Below are positions 1 to 10,187 of a stretch of 30,569 nucleotides of DNA, in pieces. The position numbers were made by a program, and so were the translations under genes. Position 1 is the stretch's first letter. Each line of letters begins with the position of its first letter. The notes beneath the pieces were generated by a model. That model did not search any database, had not been told where the DNA came from, and worked only from the letters and a program-made list of their open reading frames with translations. Source of the stretch: a virus; the IMG/VR virus record IMGVR_UViG_3300025949_001136, positions 1-30,569 of that record; one strand, given 5' to 3'.

Positions 1-489
1 CTAAAGTAGGTCCGCCAGCGTCGTCACCTCACCAGCGCATGCCACCGCGGCGATCGCTTGCCGAACGCTGATATTGGCGAGGAAATTGGCATCCCATCGC
101 ATCATCGACATCGTTTCGCCTGGCTGGCCGTCGGGCACCGGAACCTGCGTGGTCTGCTCTCCCAGCACGGCGAGGACATGCTCTTTCGTGAGCGCGTCGG
201 CGCCATAGTCCTGGATGTCCTTCTGCACGCTGGCGGTGCGCACCTCGATCACGATCTCTTTGCCGGCCACGCATAGCTTGGTGCTTCCGTCGGCGTTGAT
301 GAGCCGCGCCGACGTGTAGAAAGCCAACCCGGCGTTGTTTTCCTGCCACGTCCGCTCGACGTAGACAGCCACGTATTCGCCGGTATCCAGCTGCACCGCG
401 ACTTCGCTGGGATAGAGGCCCGGCGCGCCGATGTCACTGTTGTCGGGGTCGCGTGGCTGCGGCTGTGGGGAAACCTTGGTGTAGCTCAT
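1..489 (-). CDS. Hypothetical tail-region protein (162 aa)
   Basis: Complete gene: the TAG stop is the first three bases of the window and the ATG at 489 is preceded by a good Shine-Dalgarno (GAGAGGA). I do not recognise a family. There is no signal peptide, membrane segment or cysteine motif; the protein looks soluble and mixed alpha/beta, with a Pro-rich N-terminus. It lies 9 bp downstream of the FN3/Hint tail protein and is probably co-transcribed with it, so a role in the tail tip or fibre (for example an accessory or fibre chaperone) is inferred from position only. Confidence 0.6.
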   Translation of the reverse strand: MSYTKVSPQPQPRDPDNSDIGAPGLYPSEVAVQLDTGEYVAVYVERTWQENNAGLAFYTSARLINADGSTKLCVAGKEIVIEVRTASVQKDIQDYGADALTKEHVLAVLGEQTTQVPVPDGQPGETMSMMRWDANFLANISVRQAIAAVACAGEVTTLADLL

Positions 490-498
490 GCGATCCTC

Positions 499-2853
499 TC
501 AGGTCGGTTTGAGGTTGTGGTGGCCGATGTAGCGGCCGCGCGTGCGGCCGGCCAGGAAGACGCTGTTCTCGCAGGTGATATGGATGATTTCGCGCTCGCC
601 GATGTCTTCGACCGCGATGACGCGCTCGTGACGGTGGTCGCCGAAATCGCTTACCGGGATCAGGTGCCCGACCAGTTCCGGCGCCAGCACCAGCGATTCG
701 TCGCTGCACAGGATCGGTGCACTGGTCGAGCAGTCCAGGGAAATGCCGCTCTCGGTGATGATCCGCACGCATGGCGCCAGCTTCCGCACGGCGTAGGTCA
801 CCCTGCCCGCGCGGCGCCGGAACGTCGCGGCGTCCACCACCAGCTCCAACAGATCGTCCACCGCGATCGCGCCGGCCTCGCCGTGGCCGGGCAGCCAGGA
901 GTCGACCGTGACGCAGGCCCCGCCACCCGAACCGCCGCTGCTGCCGCTGGTGGGAAACACCACCGTTGCTGTACCCAGCAGCAGGCGATTGTTGTTCGCC
1001 ATCGCGGTGATGTTGCTGGTGGTGGCCTGCAGGGTCTGGCTGCCGCCAATAAGGTTCGGATCGTCGTAGTACAGGTAGAACTTGACGGTAGCGCCAGCGG
1101 AGCCGGTGACACCGACGGCGGATGCGTTATACGAAATCGTGTCGTTGCCCGCCTGCAGGGTCGCCGCAGTAGCGGTGATGGTCGCCGCGGTAGGCGTGGC
1201 GTTGTAGCCGAACGACAGGCCGATCCAGCCGCTACCGTAGTTTCCGAACGAGACGGTGGGCAAGTTGCGTTGCGTGCTGAGCGTACCCTTCACCTCATTG
1301 GCAAGGCTGCGCAAACGAGACAGCCGGACGCCGTCGAACGCTGACTGCGAGCCGGCCGGACCGTTGTTCTGCAGGTAGAGGCGGAACGAAATCGCCCCCG
1401 CCGGCGCCGTCACCTGCTGCTGGTAGGTATTCCAACTCGCGGACGTGGTCGACGGACCACCCGATCCGACCACGCCGCCGTTCTTGTCGAAGAACACCAG
1501 CTGCGCGAACGTGGGACCGGTGTTGATCCAGTTCACCATGGCCGCCGAGATCAGGAACACGTCGCCCGGGCTGCAGGGATACACGCGGTTGCTGACCGCC
1601 GCACCGTACTGCTGCGCCGTGGTCACAGCGAGGCTCTGATTGCCGGCAAACGCTGCGCCGGCGGTGGCATAGGACAGGTTGGCGCTGCCTCCCGTCCACC
1701 CGGGCACAGGGTTCGAGGACGTGCTGGCCTCGAAGTCGGCGTTATCCACCAGCTCAGCGACGGACGACTGGATGCCGCGCGTATAGACCGAGCTGTCGGG
1801 AACTTCATCCAGGCTGCTGGGCTGAATGTTGATCGTGGCACCGCAGTAGGTGAAATACCCCGAGGTGTGCGACACCGCGGCCAGCTCGCACACGGCGTAG
1901 ACCGCGTTCGCCGGCGCCGTCGCCACGACCTTGGTCACGCATTGCGTGTAGGTGCCCGTGCCGGCCGAGCCGCAACGCGGATAGGCCGTGCTGCCGTCCG
2001 GCGCCGAGGTCGACAGCTCGGCGTTGTTGATGTCGCGCCAGGAAATGCGCGCGTAGGCCAGCGCGCCAGCATTCGGCGCGCCGATCGCCTTGACGCAGCA
2101 CGTAGCCACCACCTGCTGACCTGGCCGAACGTTGATGTGGTAGCTGTTGCGGAGGTTGTCGGTTGCCGTCGATCCCGCCAGCGCCGTGCTTCCGGCGTGC
2201 ACCACGTAGGTATTGAACATCGGATCCGGCTTGTTGCCGGCGCCCGTCTCCCAGTACCAGCCCGGCGTGTGGTCGGGAGTCCAGTTCGACAGGTCTTTCA
2301 GGAAGTACGGATTGCCGACGTTGATGCCGGTCTGCTGGCCAGTGACATCGGCGCCATCGGCGGAGGTCTTGCCGCGGCCGCTGACGATCGGCGAATAGGC
2401 GCCCGCCACGCCGGCGAAGTTGATGGCGCGCACCTTGTACCAGCGCGTCACGCCGTCGGTGATGCCGTCGGTGTAGCTCAGCGTGCGCGCGCGGTTCAAC
2501 AGCGCATAGGTGCCGCCGCTGGTGTCGCTGCGCCACACCTCGTACTCCACGCCAGCCGGCGGCGTGGTGGACGTGGTCCAGGTCAGCAGCACGCCGTCGG
2601 AAACCGACTGGGCGGCCAGCGTGGCCACCGCCGGCGGCGCCGACGAGTTCGGCACGCTGTACCCGCTCGGCACCCACACCGATTTCGCACCGCACGCCGA
2701 CACGGCGCGCACCTCGAAGTCGTAGTTCTTCGAGCGATCGAGGCCAGTCACGACCAGCTCGGCCGTCACCGATGCCGTGGCGACCTTGCTCCACTGCAGC
2801 GTGCCCGTCTCGCGCCAGCGGATTTCATATTGGACGGGGGCGGAAGCGGCCAT
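499..2853 (-). CDS. FN3-containing tail tip/fibre protein with C-terminal Hint domain (784 aa)
   Basis: A structural tail protein, probably at the tip where the receptor is contacted. The N-terminal ~170 residues resemble two fibronectin type III repeats (YEIRWR...WSKV...Y.FEVRAVS and YEVWRSD...YKVRAINFAG). The first one lacks its initial strands and starts almost directly at the YEIRWR strand. The middle (~170-620) is rich in Gly/Ser/Thr/Asn and looks beta-sandwich or fibre-like. After a Gly/Ser linker, residues 647-784 form a Hint-like domain: first residue Cys647, a VDSWLPG block, a CSTSAPI block, and a terminal GRYIGHHN followed by only four residues. The ATG overlaps the stop of the TipJ gene (TAATG), so the two are translationally coupled. 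The Hint call rests on motifs and on its similarity to the Hint region of the upstream gene. Confidence 0.75.
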   Translation of the reverse strand: MAASAPVQYEIRWRETGTLQWSKVATASVTAELVVTGLDRSKNYDFEVRAVSACGAKSVWVPSGYSVPNSSAPPAVATLAAQSVSDGVLLTWTTSTTPPAGVEYEVWRSDTSGGTYALLNRARTLSYTDGITDGVTRWYKVRAINFAGVAGAYSPIVSGRGKTSADGADVTGQQTGINVGNPYFLKDLSNWTPDHTPGWYWETGAGNKPDPMFNTYVVHAGSTALAGSTATDNLRNSYHINVRPGQQVVATCCVKAIGAPNAGALAYARISWRDINNAELSTSAPDGSTAYPRCGSAGTGTYTQCVTKVVATAPANAVYAVCELAAVSHTSGYFTYCGATINIQPSSLDEVPDSSVYTRGIQSSVAELVDNADFEASTSSNPVPGWTGGSANLSYATAGAAFAGNQSLAVTTAQQYGAAVSNRVYPCSPGDVFLISAAMVNWINTGPTFAQLVFFDKNGGVVGSGGPSTTSASWNTYQQQVTAPAGAISFRLYLQNNGPAGSQSAFDGVRLSRLRSLANEVKGTLSTQRNLPTVSFGNYGSGWIGLSFGYNATPTAATITATAATLQAGNDTISYNASAVGVTGSAGATVKFYLYYDDPNLIGGSQTLQATTSNITAMANNNRLLLGTATVVFPTSGSSGGSGGGACVTVDSWLPGHGEAGAIAVDDLLELVVDAATFRRRAGRVTYAVRKLAPCVRIITESGISLDCSTSAPILCSDESLVLAPELVGHLIPVSDFGDHRHERVIAVEDIGEREIIHITCENSVFLAGRTRGRYIGHHNLKPT
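502..915 (-). other. Hint (intein/hedgehog-like) domain of the FN3 tail protein
   Basis: Domain of 138 residues encoded at the 3' end of the FN3 gene. Block A starts with Cys (TGC at 915-913) and contains VDSWLPG and an AVDD turn. The block B region reads SGISLDCSTSAPI; where inteins have a T-x-x-H motif, Ala stands in place of His. The end reads VFLAG...GRYIGHHN, the position of the catalytic His-Asn pair in inteins. Residue +1 is Leu, not Cys/Ser/Thr, so standard splicing is not expected; N-terminal acyl shift and cleavage remain possible. Assignment is by eye. Confidence 0.65.
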
Positions 2854-5675
2854 TAATCGACCTCGGCAGAGCGCTTGTTGTGGTGGAGGATGTAGCGGCC
2901 TGGCTCAGCGCCAGCCCAGAAACAGCCATCGTTGACGGTGATGTGCTGCACGACCTGCATGCCGATGCCGCGCAGGCGCGCCACGGCCTCCCAGCGCACG
3001 CCATCGCCGTCCTTGACCGCCACGCTTCGGCCGGCCAAGTGCGGCGCCAGTACCACGCCGGAGGGCGTGGGGATCGGCGCGGAGGTCGAACAGCGCAGCA
3101 CCGCGCCCGAGACGGTGACGATCTCGACGCAGGGCTGCAGCTTCGGTTCGCTGTAGGTGACCCGGTCGGTGCGGTCGGCCAGCGTCACCTGGTCAGCCAT
3201 CTGCAGGTAATCGCCTACGGCCACCTCGCCGGCCCGGCGCATGTCGGGCAGCAGCGAATCGGTGACCACGCAGCCGCCGGCGCTGATCGGCACGCGGTAG
3301 ATGCCAGGCGCAGGCGCCCCGGAGACGCCCGGGCTGGCCTGGACCACGCCAGCGTCGTCCGCCGCGCTGTCGCCGGCCCGGATGGTCACCACCGGCGGGT
3401 CCGGCGGCGCGCACCAGGACACGCCCGTGATGTCGCTGACGAAGGGCGGCGGCGTGCCGGCATCGGCCGTCAGCACGTCCGGCGCGGCGTCGACGCACAC
3501 CAGCTGTGCCGACAGGTCGTTAGACGGCAGGACCGACTTCACGATCAGCTCGGCCACGGTGCGGTTGACCTCACCCAGCACGAACAAGTCGCCAGGCGCG
3601 CCCGCTGGCGTGCTGCTGAGGTTGAGCGAAATCCAGGCGCCGGCCCCGTTCGTCACGTTCGCCGTGGACTCGGTGCCGTTGGCGCCGCGGATCCGCACCT
3701 GGTAGCTCTTGCCCGACTCCAGGGTCACCGGGCCATCCAGCGTGATGGTGCTACCGCTCATCGCCTTCACCCGGCCCCAGGCCAAGCCCCAGGCGATGAT
3801 GTCGTGCGCGACGTGCACCAGGTCGCCACGCTCGCAGACCATGTGCTCGATGTCGGCGCTGAAGGTGTAGGTGGTCGGTCGCTTCCAGATCACGGCCAGG
3901 TGGTAGCGCCCGAGGCGCCAGGCGGCGTCCGGGTCCGTGACCATGCGCAGGTCCAGTTCCTCGAACCGCGTGGCGTTGGTGGCGTTGTAGCCGTCCCAGT
4001 AGACGACGCGGACGTCCTGTTGCCAGCTCGCCTCCGGGTTGGTGAATTTCACCCGCAGCGCGTGCGGCGGATTGCTGAACACGCGGGCATAGCTGAAGCC
4101 GTAGCTATTCACCGGCGTGAACATCTGCACCGGAACGGTCTGCGGCAAGTCGCGCACGCCGCTGTACCGGCCGTTGCGCAGGCCGAAGCTGGCCCGGCCG
4201 GCGGCCAGCACATCGCGGACCACGTCGCCGAACGCGCGGGAGCTGTCCATCACGAAGCCGATCTGCAGCCCCTTCGTGTCGCACTCGCTGGCCCAGTCGG
4301 CGATGCCGTCCAGATCCAACCGCGAGTCCGCCAGCCGACGCATGACGGCCGGGCACCGCGTCATCAGCCAGGCATAGATCCACGCCGGGTTGTTGGTGGC
4401 CACGGCGGGCAACCACGCCTGCGCACCCTTGTCCCAGCGCGGGATCTTCTGCGAGGCCAGCACGGACAGGTTCTGCACCACGCCTTGCAGCTGGTCGGTG
4501 GCCTTGATGCGAACGGCCAGTTTCAACGTGCCGGTGGTGCTTGGCAGCTGCGGGTTGATCGAGCGGATCACCGACCACGCGGCCGCACTCTGCGCGAACT
4601 GGATGCTGCCAAAAGCCGTCGTGCCGCGCGTCACCTTCACGTCGTATTGGCCGATAGGCACCGTCCAGCGGATGCCCGTGCGCAGCGTCTGCTTGGCCGA
4701 ACTGGAAATGTTGAAGGTCGAGCCGCCATTCGTCAGGCCGCCGGTGAGGCTCAGCCCCGTGGCGCCGTTGGCGTAGGACCAGGTGCCCGACCCAACCGGC
4801 CGATACTGCACGGTGAAGCTGGTCGAGCCGCTGACGGTGCGCCCCTTGTTGTCGACGCCGTAGAAGCCGCCACTGAACACCACGTCGAGCGATATTTCCG
4901 TAGTGCCGGTCTGCGTGGTGCGGGTGTCGTTGTCGCCGCTGTTGTTAAGCGCGGTGCCCACCGCGGCCTCGAAAATGTCCTGCGAGAACAGCGTGGGCGT
5001 GGTGCTGATCTGCCACTCCACGTCGTCATAGCTCTCGATCGGCGTCGAGCCGATTTGGATATCCGAGATATCCAGGTCACCGTAGCCTAGGTCCAGCAGC
5101 ATCCGCAGGTACTGGTCATTGCCGCTGATCTCGGTGTAGGGCAGCGCGGCGTGCGGCGGGAACATCCGGTAGGAGCCGACCACGCACGGAATGACGTTGT
5201 ACGGCGCGGCCTGATTGCTCGTGCCGGTGATCGTAGCGAGCTGGTTGAAAGGATCGCCACCGCCGCCGGAAACCTTTGGCGTTGGAGGCGGAATCAAAGC
5301 ATTGATAAGCAGCGAGCCGACTGCCATTACCAGGCCCGTCGCTATGGCGGACGACACGCCAAGCGTAGGCGCAATTGCCAAGCCGATACCCGGCGCAAAA
5401 ATGGTTAATGCGACAATCGCAGCAATGCGCAGAATCTTTCCACCATTCCCGCCCTGTGGAAAAACCACGACATGCACATATTGCCCAGCGCGCGGCTTCA
5501 CCTTCGCCCACATCGCGCGCGGCACCGGGTAGCCGCCGATCTGCACATCGCAGGCTTGGCTGGCGAACTCACCGAGCATTTCGGAAATCGACTGGCCTGC
5601 CTGAAACTGGGCAAAAACTCGCTCTTCGCCGTTCATCACGTTCGGCTGAGCAACAACGGTGCATTCGTTGGTCAT
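2853..5675 (-). CDS. TipJ-family host-specificity tail tip protein with C-terminal Hint domain (940 aa)
   Basis: Central tail tip (gpJ-like) protein that would form the tail hub and contact the host receptor. The N-terminal part has the family pattern: a small N-terminal domain, two hydrophobic helices (about residues 75-120, ILRIAAIVALTIFAPGIGLAIAPTL and the following segment), then the ITGTSNQAAPYNVIPCVVGSYRM and DLGYGDLDISDIQIG motifs. The middle has the FSADIEHMVCERGDLVHVAHD segment usual for this family. The last 139 residues are a Hint-like domain beginning at Cys802. I chose ATG 5675 because a start at 5714 would lie inside the upstream terminator; GGA lies 6 nt before this ATG. The 3' end couples to the FN3 gene by TAATG. 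Confidence 0.85.
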   Translation of the reverse strand: MTNECTVVAQPNVMNGEERVFAQFQAGQSISEMLGEFASQACDVQIGGYPVPRAMWAKVKPRAGQYVHVVVFPQGGNGGKILRIAAIVALTIFAPGIGLAIAPTLGVSSAIATGLVMAVGSLLINALIPPPTPKVSGGGGDPFNQLATITGTSNQAAPYNVIPCVVGSYRMFPPHAALPYTEISGNDQYLRMLLDLGYGDLDISDIQIGSTPIESYDDVEWQISTTPTLFSQDIFEAAVGTALNNSGDNDTRTTQTGTTEISLDVVFSGGFYGVDNKGRTVSGSTSFTVQYRPVGSGTWSYANGATGLSLTGGLTNGGSTFNISSSAKQTLRTGIRWTVPIGQYDVKVTRGTTAFGSIQFAQSAAAWSVIRSINPQLPSTTGTLKLAVRIKATDQLQGVVQNLSVLASQKIPRWDKGAQAWLPAVATNNPAWIYAWLMTRCPAVMRRLADSRLDLDGIADWASECDTKGLQIGFVMDSSRAFGDVVRDVLAAGRASFGLRNGRYSGVRDLPQTVPVQMFTPVNSYGFSYARVFSNPPHALRVKFTNPEASWQQDVRVVYWDGYNATNATRFEELDLRMVTDPDAAWRLGRYHLAVIWKRPTTYTFSADIEHMVCERGDLVHVAHDIIAWGLAWGRVKAMSGSTITLDGPVTLESGKSYQVRIRGANGTESTANVTNGAGAWISLNLSSTPAGAPGDLFVLGEVNRTVAELIVKSVLPSNDLSAQLVCVDAAPDVLTADAGTPPPFVSDITGVSWCAPPDPPVVTIRAGDSAADDAGVVQASPGVSGAPAPGIYRVPISAGGCVVTDSLLPDMRRAGEVAVGDYLQMADQVTLADRTDRVTYSEPKLQPCVEIVTVSGAVLRCSTSAPIPTPSGVVLAPHLAGRSVAVKDGDGVRWEAVARLRGIGMQVVQHITVNDGCFWAGAEPGRYILHHNKRSAEVD
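2856..3272 (-). other. Hint (intein/hedgehog-like) domain of the TipJ protein
   Basis: The last 139 residues of the TipJ protein. It starts with Cys (TGC at 3272-3270) in GGCVVTDSLLP and has the AVGD turn typical of Hint block A. It shares RVTY, PCVEIVT, the unusual CSTSAPI, VLAP, HIT and the terminal GRYILHHN with the Hint region of the downstream gene. Seven residues follow the Asn and the +1 residue is Lys. Both copies replace the block B His by Ala, so this is a shared feature of the pair rather than random decay of one copy. Confidence 0.65.
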
Positions 5676-5734: not shown

Positions 5735-6139
5735 CTACATTCGGCAGGTAGGTGTTCCAGTCACAATCGACTGCTTTGCAGCTTCCATCTCTCGCTCATC
5801 CCAAATACCAGTGCCCCAAGCGGTCACGGTCACGGATGCGCCATCGCCGTCTTTGGCAATGTCAATGCGCTCTAGATCTTTCCCGGTTCCAGGCGCGGAA
5901 ATTCGCACAACGCCCTTTTCGGTATCCGTGAAGAGATCTCCGCCAACGTCGAACGACTCCCGGAGGATGTTCGTACTGGTTCGGCAATGACGTGCATATG
6001 CACCGGCGCGCCTATAGGCTTCCTGGTACGTGACTGGCGCCGAGAACTGTGCCTTGAGAGAACCCACGTCGCCATCCTTAATTCCGACGGAGCACCCCGC
6101 CAACAGGCAGACGCCAATTCCAAGCAATACGTGTCGCAT
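5735..6139 (-). CDS. Phage-encoded lipoprotein (134 aa)
   Basis: Predicted outer-membrane or periplasmic lipoprotein. It has a short basic N-terminus (MRH), a hydrophobic stretch and a clear lipobox, LLAGCS, with Cys16 as the lipidation site. The mature part has YQEAYRRAGAYARHC and further Cys near the C-terminus (TCRM). It may belong to the BPTD_2524-like phage lipoproteins, but that is from memory and weak. It sits between the NlpC/P60 hydrolase and the terminator before TipJ, in the position where some T5- and lambda-like phages place superinfection-exclusion lipoproteins. That role is an inference from location and lipidation only. Confidence 0.75.
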   Translation of the reverse strand: MRHVLLGIGVCLLAGCSVGIKDGDVGSLKAQFSAPVTYQEAYRRAGAYARHCRTSTNILRESFDVGGDLFTDTEKGVVRISAPGTGKDLERIDIAKDGDGASVTVTAWGTGIWDEREMEAAKQSIVTGTPTCRM

Positions 6140-7391: not shown

Positions 7392-10187
7392 TCAGCCACC
7401 TCCCACCGAAACGCCGCGGCGCTGCACGCCGAATCGCTGCTGCATCGCCTGCGCGGTGCGGCCGCCCTTGTTGATGTCGCTGGCGACCGCGTCCAGGACC
7501 ACGTCGATAATCACCGTATCGCCGTCACGCCGCGCGCCCGTCTGCTGCGCCTGCACGGGCTGGCCGTTGTTGGTGACGTTGACCTGGACATTGACGTCGC
7601 CGTCGCCGCCACCCTGCGTACGCACGCCCAGGCGGCCATCGCTGCCGCGACGTAGGGGCAGGATCGCCTCCGGGCCGGCCTCGCCCATCAGGCCCGCGCC
7701 GTTGGCGAACTTGAACATGGTCGGGTTGCTCACCACCTGGCCGGAGAACCGAGACAGGCTGGCCGAGTTGTAGACGCCGCCCTTGGCATTCACCTGGCTG
7801 ACGAAACCCTGGCTGTTGTAGCTGAGGCCGCCCTGCCCGTTCGTGCCGCCGAAGCCGCCGCTGCCGAAGATCGAGGTGAGCACCTGCGATGCCAGGATGC
7901 GCAGTTCCATCTTCACCAGGTCGGCCACGAACGAATCCACGAGGCTCTTGAAGCTGATCTTGCCCGTGGTGACGAAGTTGGCCAGCGCGTCCGTCCAGCT
8001 GTTGAGCTGGCCGGTGACCAATTCCTCGGTCTGCTTCGATACGTTGCCGGCCTGGTCGGCGAAATTGAGCATGGCGCGCTGTGCGCCGCGGCTCCAGTCC
8101 TGCTCCGCCTTGAGCATCGTCGCGTCGGCATCCTGCGCCGCCTGGACGCGCTCCGCCTCGTACTTCTTGATGAGCGCCAGCTTCTGGTCGTACTCCTGCT
8201 GGGTCATCTGGACCCGGTTGCTCGGGTCGTTGAGCTTGGCCAGCTCCGCCTCGCTCTCGCGGTGGATGTCGATCAGCTGACGTTCCAGCGCGATCTGGCG
8301 ATCGCTCATGCCAAGGGCGGCCACCTGCAGGTCGAGCGCCTGCTTGTCGGTGGCCAGCCGCTGGTCCATGGCCGACTTGTATTCGTTGATCCCCTTCTGG
8401 GCCTGGCTGATCTGGCGGTCGTAGTACTGGTTCGTCTGGTCGATCGCCGCGCCCAGCTTCTTCTGGACCTCGATGACGGGCGCGCCGCCGGCGATAGCCT
8501 TGCCGCCTTCCTCCGCCAGCTTGCGGATCGCCTCCACGCGCTTGTCGACGATCTTGTCGTCGGTGCCCATGTTCTTGGCGAAGGCTTCCTCCACCAGCTT
8601 GTTGAACTGCTCCAGCGCGGTATTGGCTTTCTTCACGCCAGCGGCGAAGTCGGCGCCCAAGTCTTCCCGGGTGTCTACCGTGGGGATCTTCGGTAGCGGC
8701 GCGGCTGCCTTCTTCTTGGCCGCCTCCGCGGCGATCTCGTAGTCGGCCAAGCCGGTGGTGTTTTCGTGGATAGCCTTGATGTTCTTCTCGGCCTCCGCGT
8801 TGATGCGCGCGACCGCGGCGGCGAAGTCGTCGGCGGCGGCCGTGGCCGGGCGCAGGCGCTTCTCGACGTCGCGCAGCTGGTCGACGCGGCCGCTCTGGAA
8901 CGGCAGCTTGTCCAGCAGGTCCGCCTCGCTGCCGGCCAGGTCCGCCAGCATGGTGCGAATCGTGTTGAACGACCCGACGGCGCCGGCCTTGATGGCCTCC
9001 CAGGCGATCAGTGCGCCGGCCTTGATCTTCTCCCAGCTGGTCAGCAGGCCGTCCACGAGCGCGATGCCGGCCAGGCGCACCTCGAGGAACTGGTCCCGCA
9101 GGTAGGAACCGATCTCCCAGCCCACGAAGCCTGCCGCCAGCAGCTTGAACGCCACGCCCAGCAGGCCGACCTCCTTGATGGCCGACGAGAAGCTGGCCGA
9201 GGTCACCGCGCCCCACTCGGCTTGGGCCACCACCAGCGCCTTGAGCGCCGCGAGCTGGCCGCCCATGCTGGCGATCCAGCGCGCGCCGTTCAGCAGCAGG
9301 TTCTGCGTGTACACCGCCGCGGCGATCTCGCCGAGCCGCGTCACGGCGTCGATGATCGCGTCGAAGTTGTCGACCACCGCCTGCGCGCCGGCCGCGATCG
9401 TATCCAGCGTCGCCTTCCATTGGTCGCCGCGGAAGAACGTCGCGGCCTTGACGGCGATGTCGGCCAGCACCGGCCCGAGCACCGTGGCGAGCTGGTTGGC
9501 CACGCCCTTGCCGACGAAGGACAACTGCTCCATCGCGTCGTTGAAGCGCTCCGCCGTCGGCGCCGCGTCCTTGCTGACGATCAGGCCGAAGTCCTTGGCC
9601 ATCTTGATGTAGTCGTCGAGACCGGCCTTGCCGCCATTGAGCAGCGGGATCAGCTGGGCGCCGGATTTGCCGAACAGGTCGGTGGCCAGCGCGGTCTTCG
9701 TCGCGCCGTCCTTGAGCTGAGAGAAGCGATCGGCCACCTCGCCGAACAGCTGCTCGGTCGACTTCATTTTCCCGCTGGCGTCGGTGACCGAGATCCCGAG
9801 CGCCTTGAACTGGGCGATCTGCGCTTTGTTGCCGGCCGCCGCCTTCGTGGCAGCCTGCTCCAGCTTCACCATCGACTTGTTGAAGCCCTCGCCATCCACG
9901 CCGGCCTGCTGAGCCGCCAGGCGCCAGCCAGATAGGGTTTCGGTGCTGACGCCCACCTTCTGCGACAGCTTGCTGATCTCGTCCTGCACGTCGAGTGCGG
10001 ACTGCACGAAGTGGGCGACGGCGCCGACGCTGAACGCGCCACCGATCGCGGTGGCGATGCCGGCCAGCGTGCGGCTGATTTCCTTGGCGCGTTGCTCGGC
10101 AATGCGCGCAGCACGCCCCAGGTCGGACTCCAGCTTGGCGATGCGCGCCTCCAGGTCAATGGAGACGGTGCCGACGTTGTTAGCCAT
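7392..10187 (-). CDS. Tail tape measure protein (931 aa)
   Basis: Sets tail length and passes through the tail tube at injection. The N-terminus is a helical coiled coil (DLEARIAKLESDLGRAARIAEQ) followed by the tape-measure core (VQDEISKLSQKVGVSTETLSGW, LFGKSGAQLIPLLNGG). Hydrophobic helices lie about residues 290-380 and long charged helices follow. The C-terminal region has the lambda-type ending: WTDALANFVTTGKISFKSLVDSFVADLVKMELRILASQVL, a Gly-rich stretch, then GEAGPEAILPLRRGSDGRLGV. At about 0.15 nm per residue the length suggests a tail near 140 nm. It follows the chaperone genes, as expected. Confidence 0.95.
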   Translation of the reverse strand: MANNVGTVSIDLEARIAKLESDLGRAARIAEQRAKEISRTLAGIATAIGGAFSVGAVAHFVQSALDVQDEISKLSQKVGVSTETLSGWRLAAQQAGVDGEGFNKSMVKLEQAATKAAAGNKAQIAQFKALGISVTDASGKMKSTEQLFGEVADRFSQLKDGATKTALATDLFGKSGAQLIPLLNGGKAGLDDYIKMAKDFGLIVSKDAAPTAERFNDAMEQLSFVGKGVANQLATVLGPVLADIAVKAATFFRGDQWKATLDTIAAGAQAVVDNFDAIIDAVTRLGEIAAAVYTQNLLLNGARWIASMGGQLAALKALVVAQAEWGAVTSASFSSAIKEVGLLGVAFKLLAAGFVGWEIGSYLRDQFLEVRLAGIALVDGLLTSWEKIKAGALIAWEAIKAGAVGSFNTIRTMLADLAGSEADLLDKLPFQSGRVDQLRDVEKRLRPATAAADDFAAAVARINAEAEKNIKAIHENTTGLADYEIAAEAAKKKAAAPLPKIPTVDTREDLGADFAAGVKKANTALEQFNKLVEEAFAKNMGTDDKIVDKRVEAIRKLAEEGGKAIAGGAPVIEVQKKLGAAIDQTNQYYDRQISQAQKGINEYKSAMDQRLATDKQALDLQVAALGMSDRQIALERQLIDIHRESEAELAKLNDPSNRVQMTQQEYDQKLALIKKYEAERVQAAQDADATMLKAEQDWSRGAQRAMLNFADQAGNVSKQTEELVTGQLNSWTDALANFVTTGKISFKSLVDSFVADLVKMELRILASQVLTSIFGSGGFGGTNGQGGLSYNSQGFVSQVNAKGGVYNSASLSRFSGQVVSNPTMFKFANGAGLMGEAGPEAILPLRRGSDGRLGVRTQGGGDGDVNVQVNVTNNGQPVQAQQTGARRDGDTVIIDVVLDAVASDINKGGRTAQAMQQRFGVQRRGVSVGGG

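Follow-up and report, generated by a model that had tools for sequence, protein, structure and literature searches.

What could an intein-like domain do at the end of a phage tail protein, and does it matter that two adjacent tail proteins each carry one? These questions are raised by the virus record IMGVR_UViG_3300025949_001136, of which a stretch of 30,569 nucleotides was analysed (the ‘window’). Its minus strand holds a lambda-like tail module, comprising a tape measure gene (7392–10187), minor tail protein genes, and the two genes considered here, J1 and J2. J1 (2853–5675, minus strand; ATG at 5675, TAA at 2853–2855, although the open frame reaches 5714 with a TTG start) encodes a 940-aa TipJ/lambda gpJ-like tail tip protein that matches the profiles phrog_31, central tail fiber J (E=4e-106), NCBIfam attach_TipJ_rel (E=7e-59) and Pfam FNIII-A_GpJ. 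J2 (499–2853, minus strand) encodes a 784-aa FN3-containing tail protein that matches Pfam fn3 and, again, phrog_31 (E=4e-22). Together the two proteins cover one gpJ profile in order (phrog_31 positions 100–890 in J1, then 902–1282 in J2), and J2 is, on this profile evidence, the equivalent of the gpJ portion that follows J1. The stop codon of J1 and the start codon of J2 overlap (TAATG). Between the upstream tail gene and J1 sits the gene of a small protein (5735–6139, minus strand) with a lipoprotein-like signal, LLAGCS, and no match in Pfam or PHROGs; its position suggests a surface or superinfection-exclusion lipoprotein. A 162-aa protein is encoded downstream of J2 (1–489, minus strand); it is kept in the related locus L008, and Pfam and PHROGs searches with it gave no match.

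Both J1 and J2 end in a Hint domain, as the initial annotation had proposed. That of J1 comprises 132 residues (2877–3272, minus strand) from Cys1 (codon 3270–3272) to a terminal Asn (codon 2877–2879), and that of J2 comprises 134 residues (514–915, minus strand; Cys1 codon 913–915, Asn codon 514–516), with a Gly-rich linker, GSSGGSGGGA, directly upstream (916–945, minus strand). The domains share 46% identity over 138 aa (E=3e-34), and all of the motifs previously listed as common to them were found in each: the first Cys, DS-x-LP, CSTSAPI, VLAP, HIT and GRYI-x-HHN. Position 10 of block B (B:10), occupied in inteins by a catalytic His, was correctly reported as Ala in both proteins, at 3078–3080 (minus strand) in J1, on alignment to the gp41-1 and DnaB inteins, and at 718–720 (minus strand) in J2. 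The residue before Cys1 is Gly in J1, where a Gly-Gly pair is present, and Ala in J2, where it is not. Beyond the terminal His-Asn there remain only a short tail of seven residues in J1 (KRSAEVD; 2856–2876, minus strand) and one of four in J2 (LKPT; 502–513, minus strand), so that Asn is followed by Lys and Leu respectively, also as first described. One premise needs amending: inteins and hedgehog proteins had both been said to use the Cys and the His-Asn, which holds for the Cys in hedgehog but not for the terminal His-Asn, which hedgehog does not use.

Profile libraries gave no hint of this assignment. No Hint or intein match to either domain was obtained in Pfam, NCBIfam or PHROGs, even at permissive thresholds, and the Pfam intein/Hint models matched none of eight family members at E≤5, whereas the same library found a true DnaB intein. 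A profile built from eight homologues and compared with PDB sequences had the gp41-1 intein as its top match (E=3.6e-4), nearly all weaker matches also being inteins, and the weak matches of the family profile in genomes include true DnaB inteins. AlphaFold2 models, built from alignments of window and fetched sequences, had a pLDDT of 93.0 for the J1 domain and 92.3 for the J2 domain. Foldseek gave a match to the Ssp DnaB intein (E=8e-8, TM 0.81), and VIA-align gave Z scores for the J1 and J2 models of 18.9 and 18.3 with that intein and 18.5 and 18.1 with hedgehog, compared with 15.9 for a BIL. In structural alignment, Cys1 and Asn of J1 were the first and last aligned residues, paired with Cys1 and Asn440 of the Mtu RecA intein. 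Both models are of high confidence and agree with Hint structures from end to end, so that chance is not a credible explanation, and the Hint fold of the C-terminal domains of J1 and J2 is not in doubt.

In all, 42 copies of the domain were collected, their sources being prophages, siphophages, and myophages of T4-like and jumbo type. Every copy forms the very C-terminal end of a tail or virion protein, most with a Gly-rich linker ahead of them, and the proteins that bear them belong to several unrelated families or to no family. By tblastn the domain was found in just 7/50,697 phage records (Stenotrophomonas T4-like phage DLP6; Xanthomonas phages Xhv-12/15/16, LucasX and XacN1; Erwinia phage Ep032), as the last domain of tail or virion proteins, VrlC-like ones among them. 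IMG/VR and bacterial genomes yielded further siphophage and prophage copies, including those of Rhodanobacter glycinis (on both J1 and J2) and others of its family; plasmids were searched for the domain and none was found. Although the named hosts are nearly all Xanthomonadales, limitation to phages of that order was rejected, two genomes (G631 and G1048) apparently representing another order. The full-text literature describes Hint domains in phage terminases and reductases, with no account found there of Hint domains on tail proteins.

Several individual loci merit description. The bacterial genome G631 carries six Hint-bearing tail genes or fragments (loci L036–L041, L047–L049, L055–L057) representing a set of related prophages; a decayed domain end, in which HK replaces HN, occurs once in this genome and once in G1048. 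In Xanthomonas phage PhiXhv-12 (L004, 25549–26016), the gene directly following that of the Hint-bearing tail protein encodes a stand-alone, degenerate Hint-like protein lacking Cys1 and His-Asn (XYR92700), conceivably the remains of a decayed copy or else a partner. In DLP6, an open frame that carries a Hint domain and lacks annotation extends into the start of the record (L007, 3–1652); the gene was probably missed owing to how the genome was cut open. The Erwinia phage Ep032 record (L010), which is marked unverified, differs hardly at all in this region from three Xanthomonas phages.

Conservation was concentrated on a small number of residues. Among 24 sequences with a mean column identity of 34%, only four columns were invariant: Cys1, one Gly, and the terminal His and Asn. 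Across the family Cys1, the position 1 nucleophile required of the HINT superfamily, was kept in 42/42 copies, as was His-Asn; B:7 was Ser in 41/42 (Thr in one) and B:11 was Pro in 41/42. The His of block B was found in 0/42, being replaced by Ala in 26 and Thr in 16, and the block F Asp (F:4) was likewise found in 0/42, this position being His, Lys, Arg or other, but never Cys. A canonical +1 nucleophile (Cys/Ser/Thr) was seen in 2/42, and the remaining 40/42, including both window copies, combine a terminal His-Asn with the lack of a +1 nucleophile, which is the trait of A-type BILs (PMC7765530, PMC7664689). At −1 most copies have Gly, Ala or another small residue, and a few have Trp. The +1 Cys/Ser/Thr and the Pfam intein/Hint match expected of a class 1 intein are thus both lacking in the window copies, and ordinary splicing is unlikely, as had been anticipated, since the +1 nucleophile is absent and both the His of block B and the Asp of block F have been lost. 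A class 3 intein (WCT motif) was rejected on the presence of Cys1 in 42/42 and the lack of Cys at F:4, and a Hedgehog Hog domain on the lack of a sterol-recognition region, just 3–19 residues following His-Asn. Between the window and L008, dN/dS was 0.05 and 0.11 in the two domains, which are, by this measure, under purifying selection. That Cys1 and His-Asn have been kept under such selection makes self-processing likely, in line with the initial annotation. An apparent compensatory swap, between Ala or Thr in block B and the residue before His-Asn (His, Ser or Thr), was perfect in 26 sequences; it is not evidence of coupling, however, since it reflects a single branch of the tree and has an exception in L094.

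The feature overlooked in the initial annotation is a lysine in the tail after His-Asn. These tails are 3–19 residues long and variable in both length and sequence, with Lys-Pro endings common, yet Lys was present in 42/42. The count was 31/31 in the first set of copies, and clustering of all 42 at 50% identity left 21/21, compared with Lys in the last six residues of 32/119 (27%) other proteins from the comparison phages. At this control rate the chance of the result is approximately 1e-12 for the 21 clusters, a figure that shared ancestry weakens, kinship having been handled by identity clustering only. As the pattern had been spotted after the first set was assembled, further copies were fetched using queries that stopped before His-Asn; Lys was found in 11/11 new distinct copies held out in this way. 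The Lys lay at +1 to +6 in 38/40 copies (clustered at 90% identity), and its position shifted between groups although the residue itself was always kept, being +1 in 5/6 J1 copies (as in the window), +2 in many J2 copies (as in the window) and +3 to +5 in most myophage copies. Arg was not enriched in the tail (5/25 observed, 6.2 expected), and the enrichment of Lys without Arg favours amine chemistry over mere charge. By analogy with known systems, two roles for this Lys are attractive, as an acyl acceptor or as a substitute for the His of B:10. The last four residues of the J1 model had pLDDT <50, and with the tail so poorly ordered the position of Lys cannot be read from the models. As judged from these sequences, and from a comparison with BILs that was by fold and covered solved BIL structures only, the copies appear to form a new BIL-like Hint subfamily on phage tails, with Cys1, His-Asn, a tail Lys and loss of the block B His as its signature.

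Natural homologues without the domain indicate where it was attached. Hint-less J1 homologues (L043, 47% identical; L064, 67% identical; L065, L066 and L068–L070) run colinear with the window J1 until a few residues from Cys1, where they end, 11–15 residues beyond the J1 core match, which is the position of Cys1 (31 residues in L068, where the match ends earlier). L043, for example, ends in GIYRMPVTFGGNGRSVAMR, compared with GIYRVPISAGG-Cys in the window. In SOVA965 the J1/J2 split exists without any Hint domain, and J2 ends in a Gly-rich stretch where the Hint domain of the window J2 begins. As the Hint-less proteins stop at the position of Cys1, the domain is best regarded as an add-on, the removal of which would leave a protein of natural length. 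Hint domains on J1 have been gained or lost freely: J1 homologues 53–68% identical to the J1 of the window lack the domain in L064, L069 and L070 while their J2 keeps it, and L009 has it on J1 only. On J2 it occurs in nearly every complete protein of the group. J1 copies cluster together in the tree, apart from J2 copies, and the two Hint domains of the window are therefore old paralogues rather than the product of a recent duplication. Ligation of J1 to J2, prompted as an idea by the splitting of gpJ exactly at the domain, was rejected as a general function on the split without Hint in SOVA965, the seven loci above in which J1 has no Hint, and L009, and obligatory pairing was rejected because many loci have a single Hint domain. 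The initial suggestion that the pairing itself matters, as a sign of a processing or joining step, is not supported; pairing is, as far as these loci tell, common but not required.

The reading we prefer, with a probability of roughly 0.55, is that of a BIL-like autoprocessing domain that removes itself, with the tail Lys as acyl acceptor or His substitute. That Cys1 and His-Asn have both been retained points to action at the two ends of the domain, and hence to its release. For the chemical steps, their timing and the role of the Lys, we infer the following sequence by analogy. Once the tail-tip or baseplate protein to which it is joined by a Gly-rich or short linker had folded, Cys1 would capture, as a thioester, the acyl group of the residue before it (Gly in J1, Ala in J2), and the terminal Asn, aided by the penultimate His, would cyclise and cut the domain from the short tail. 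The amine of the tail Lys would then either accept the acyl group, so that a short peptide joined by an isopeptide bond caps the tail protein, or else would have replaced the missing block B His in activating the first bond. The net outcome would be departure of the 14 kDa domain, with a tail protein of approximately the length of its natural Hint-less homologues. There is precedent for the parts of this scheme: BILs that lack the +1 nucleophile for the most part cleave (PMC7664689), A-type BILs cut their own C-terminus through Asn (PMC7765530), and Tetrahymena BIL2 forms a Lys isopeptide bond and links its N-extein to lysines in other proteins (PMC8616854). Two inteins have been reported without the block B His, of which one is a pseudogene and the other, Tko CDC21-1, uses a Lys instead (PMC4031507). 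Self-removal is weakened, however, by the small −1 residues of most copies, given that the Ssp DnaB intein fails at the first step when its block B His is lost in combination with Gly(−1), a defect that bulky −1 residues rescue (PMC6333167). A bolder proposal, tentative and held with well under even confidence, is that the domain transfers the C-terminus of the tail protein onto the Lys in its own or a neighbouring subunit's tail, yielding an isopeptide-capped or cross-linked tip with neither enzyme nor cofactor, through a lysine-acceptor form of splicing that dispenses with the block B His.

Were only the C-terminal bond cut, Asn cyclisation would free the Lys peptide and the domain would stay in place, with a C-terminal succinimide able to react with amines and with Cys1 serving, for example, as a redox switch. 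Such an arrangement would account for the invariance of His-Asn where the His of block B and the Asp of block F, which belong to the N-terminal reaction, are gone in 42/42, and it is what A-type BILs do at their C-terminus (PMC7765530); but Cys1 is just as invariant, and the colinearity of J1 with Hint-less homologues up to Cys1 fits removal at that point better, making this reading unlikely. We consider it unlikelier still that the thioester is used in trans, attaching the protein to another tail subunit or, during adsorption, to a host-surface amine or hydroxyl. The location at the tail tip, the GG before Cys1 in J1, the occurrence of the domain in both siphophages and myophages on tail proteins unrelated to one another, and the conjugation by Tetrahymena BIL2 of its N-extein to other proteins (PMC8616854) are all consistent with attachment of this sort, yet an acceptor Lys in the domain's own tail makes an external one needless, no conserved partner was found, and J1–J2 ligation is not general, the pair being non-obligatory and the split existing without Hint.

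The domain might instead be folded but non-catalytic, acting as a structural cap, receptor-binding module or chaperone, with Lys guarding against tail-specific proteases or adding charge. Although the missing His of block B and Asp of block F, and the frequency of Lys-Pro endings, would suit such a role, three of the four invariant columns are the catalytic Cys1, His and Asn of inteins, and charge alone fails to explain Lys enrichment without Arg; we regard it as improbable. Least credible by far is the idea of an intein remnant in decay where a gene was split. It finds some encouragement in the match of J1 and J2, in order, to one gpJ profile and in the degenerate stand-alone copy of L004, but one would not expect of a remnant dN/dS values this low, active residues kept in 42/42, or Gly-rich linkers and a C-terminal position in a number of unrelated proteins, and splits also occur without Hint.

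The family is an unrecognised intein-like subfamily carried by tail proteins of the virion in several unrelated types of phage, for which natural homologues without the domain provide a ready control. If the preferred reading, self-removal with participation of the tail Lys, is true, self-processing would be added to tail-tip maturation, as trimming or covalent capping of tail proteins; there would be another natural way for a Hint domain to work without the most conserved His of inteins; and a compact domain would be available for making Lys isopeptide bonds or for clean C-terminal release.

Among known systems, A-type BILs (e.g. the Clostridium thermocellum BIL, 2lwy) share with the phage domain the Hint fold (Z 15.9), Cys1, the terminal His-Asn, the lack of a +1 nucleophile and a location outside any conserved enzyme active site, but the phage domain differs in having no block B His, in its place at the extreme C-terminus with a Lys-containing tail of 3–19 residues, and in being carried on phage tail proteins. 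The Tetrahymena BUBL BIL2 (6y75, 6tmm) is alike in fold (Z 16.3–16.4) and in the Gly-Gly before Cys1 of J1, and its Lys isopeptide is the proposed analogue of the product envisaged here; BIL2, however, is flanked by ubiquitin-like domains and retains a His, H69, for which a catalytic role is proposed, whereas the Lys of the phage domain is in a short tail. Mini-inteins (gp41-1, and the Ssp and Npu DnaB inteins) are the closest matches in both fold and sequence (Z 18–19; gp41-1 found by profile, as above), although the phage domain has few C-extein residues and neither a +1 nucleophile, a block B His nor a block F Asp. The Tko CDC21-1 intein also lacks the block B His and activates its N-terminal bond with a Lys, the alternative proposed for the phage domain, but there the Lys is inside the intein (Lys58), which is a splicing one. 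In the Hedgehog Hog domain (1at0, 6tyy; Z 18.0–18.5) a C-terminal Hint domain processes the protein preceding it, as is proposed in phage; Hog uses the Cys1 step alone together with a sterol-recognition region, whereas the phage domain has an invariant His-Asn and is followed by no other domain. Peptidase S74 C-terminal self-cleaving chaperones of phage tail fibres are also removable C-terminal domains of tail proteins, of a different fold and chemistry.
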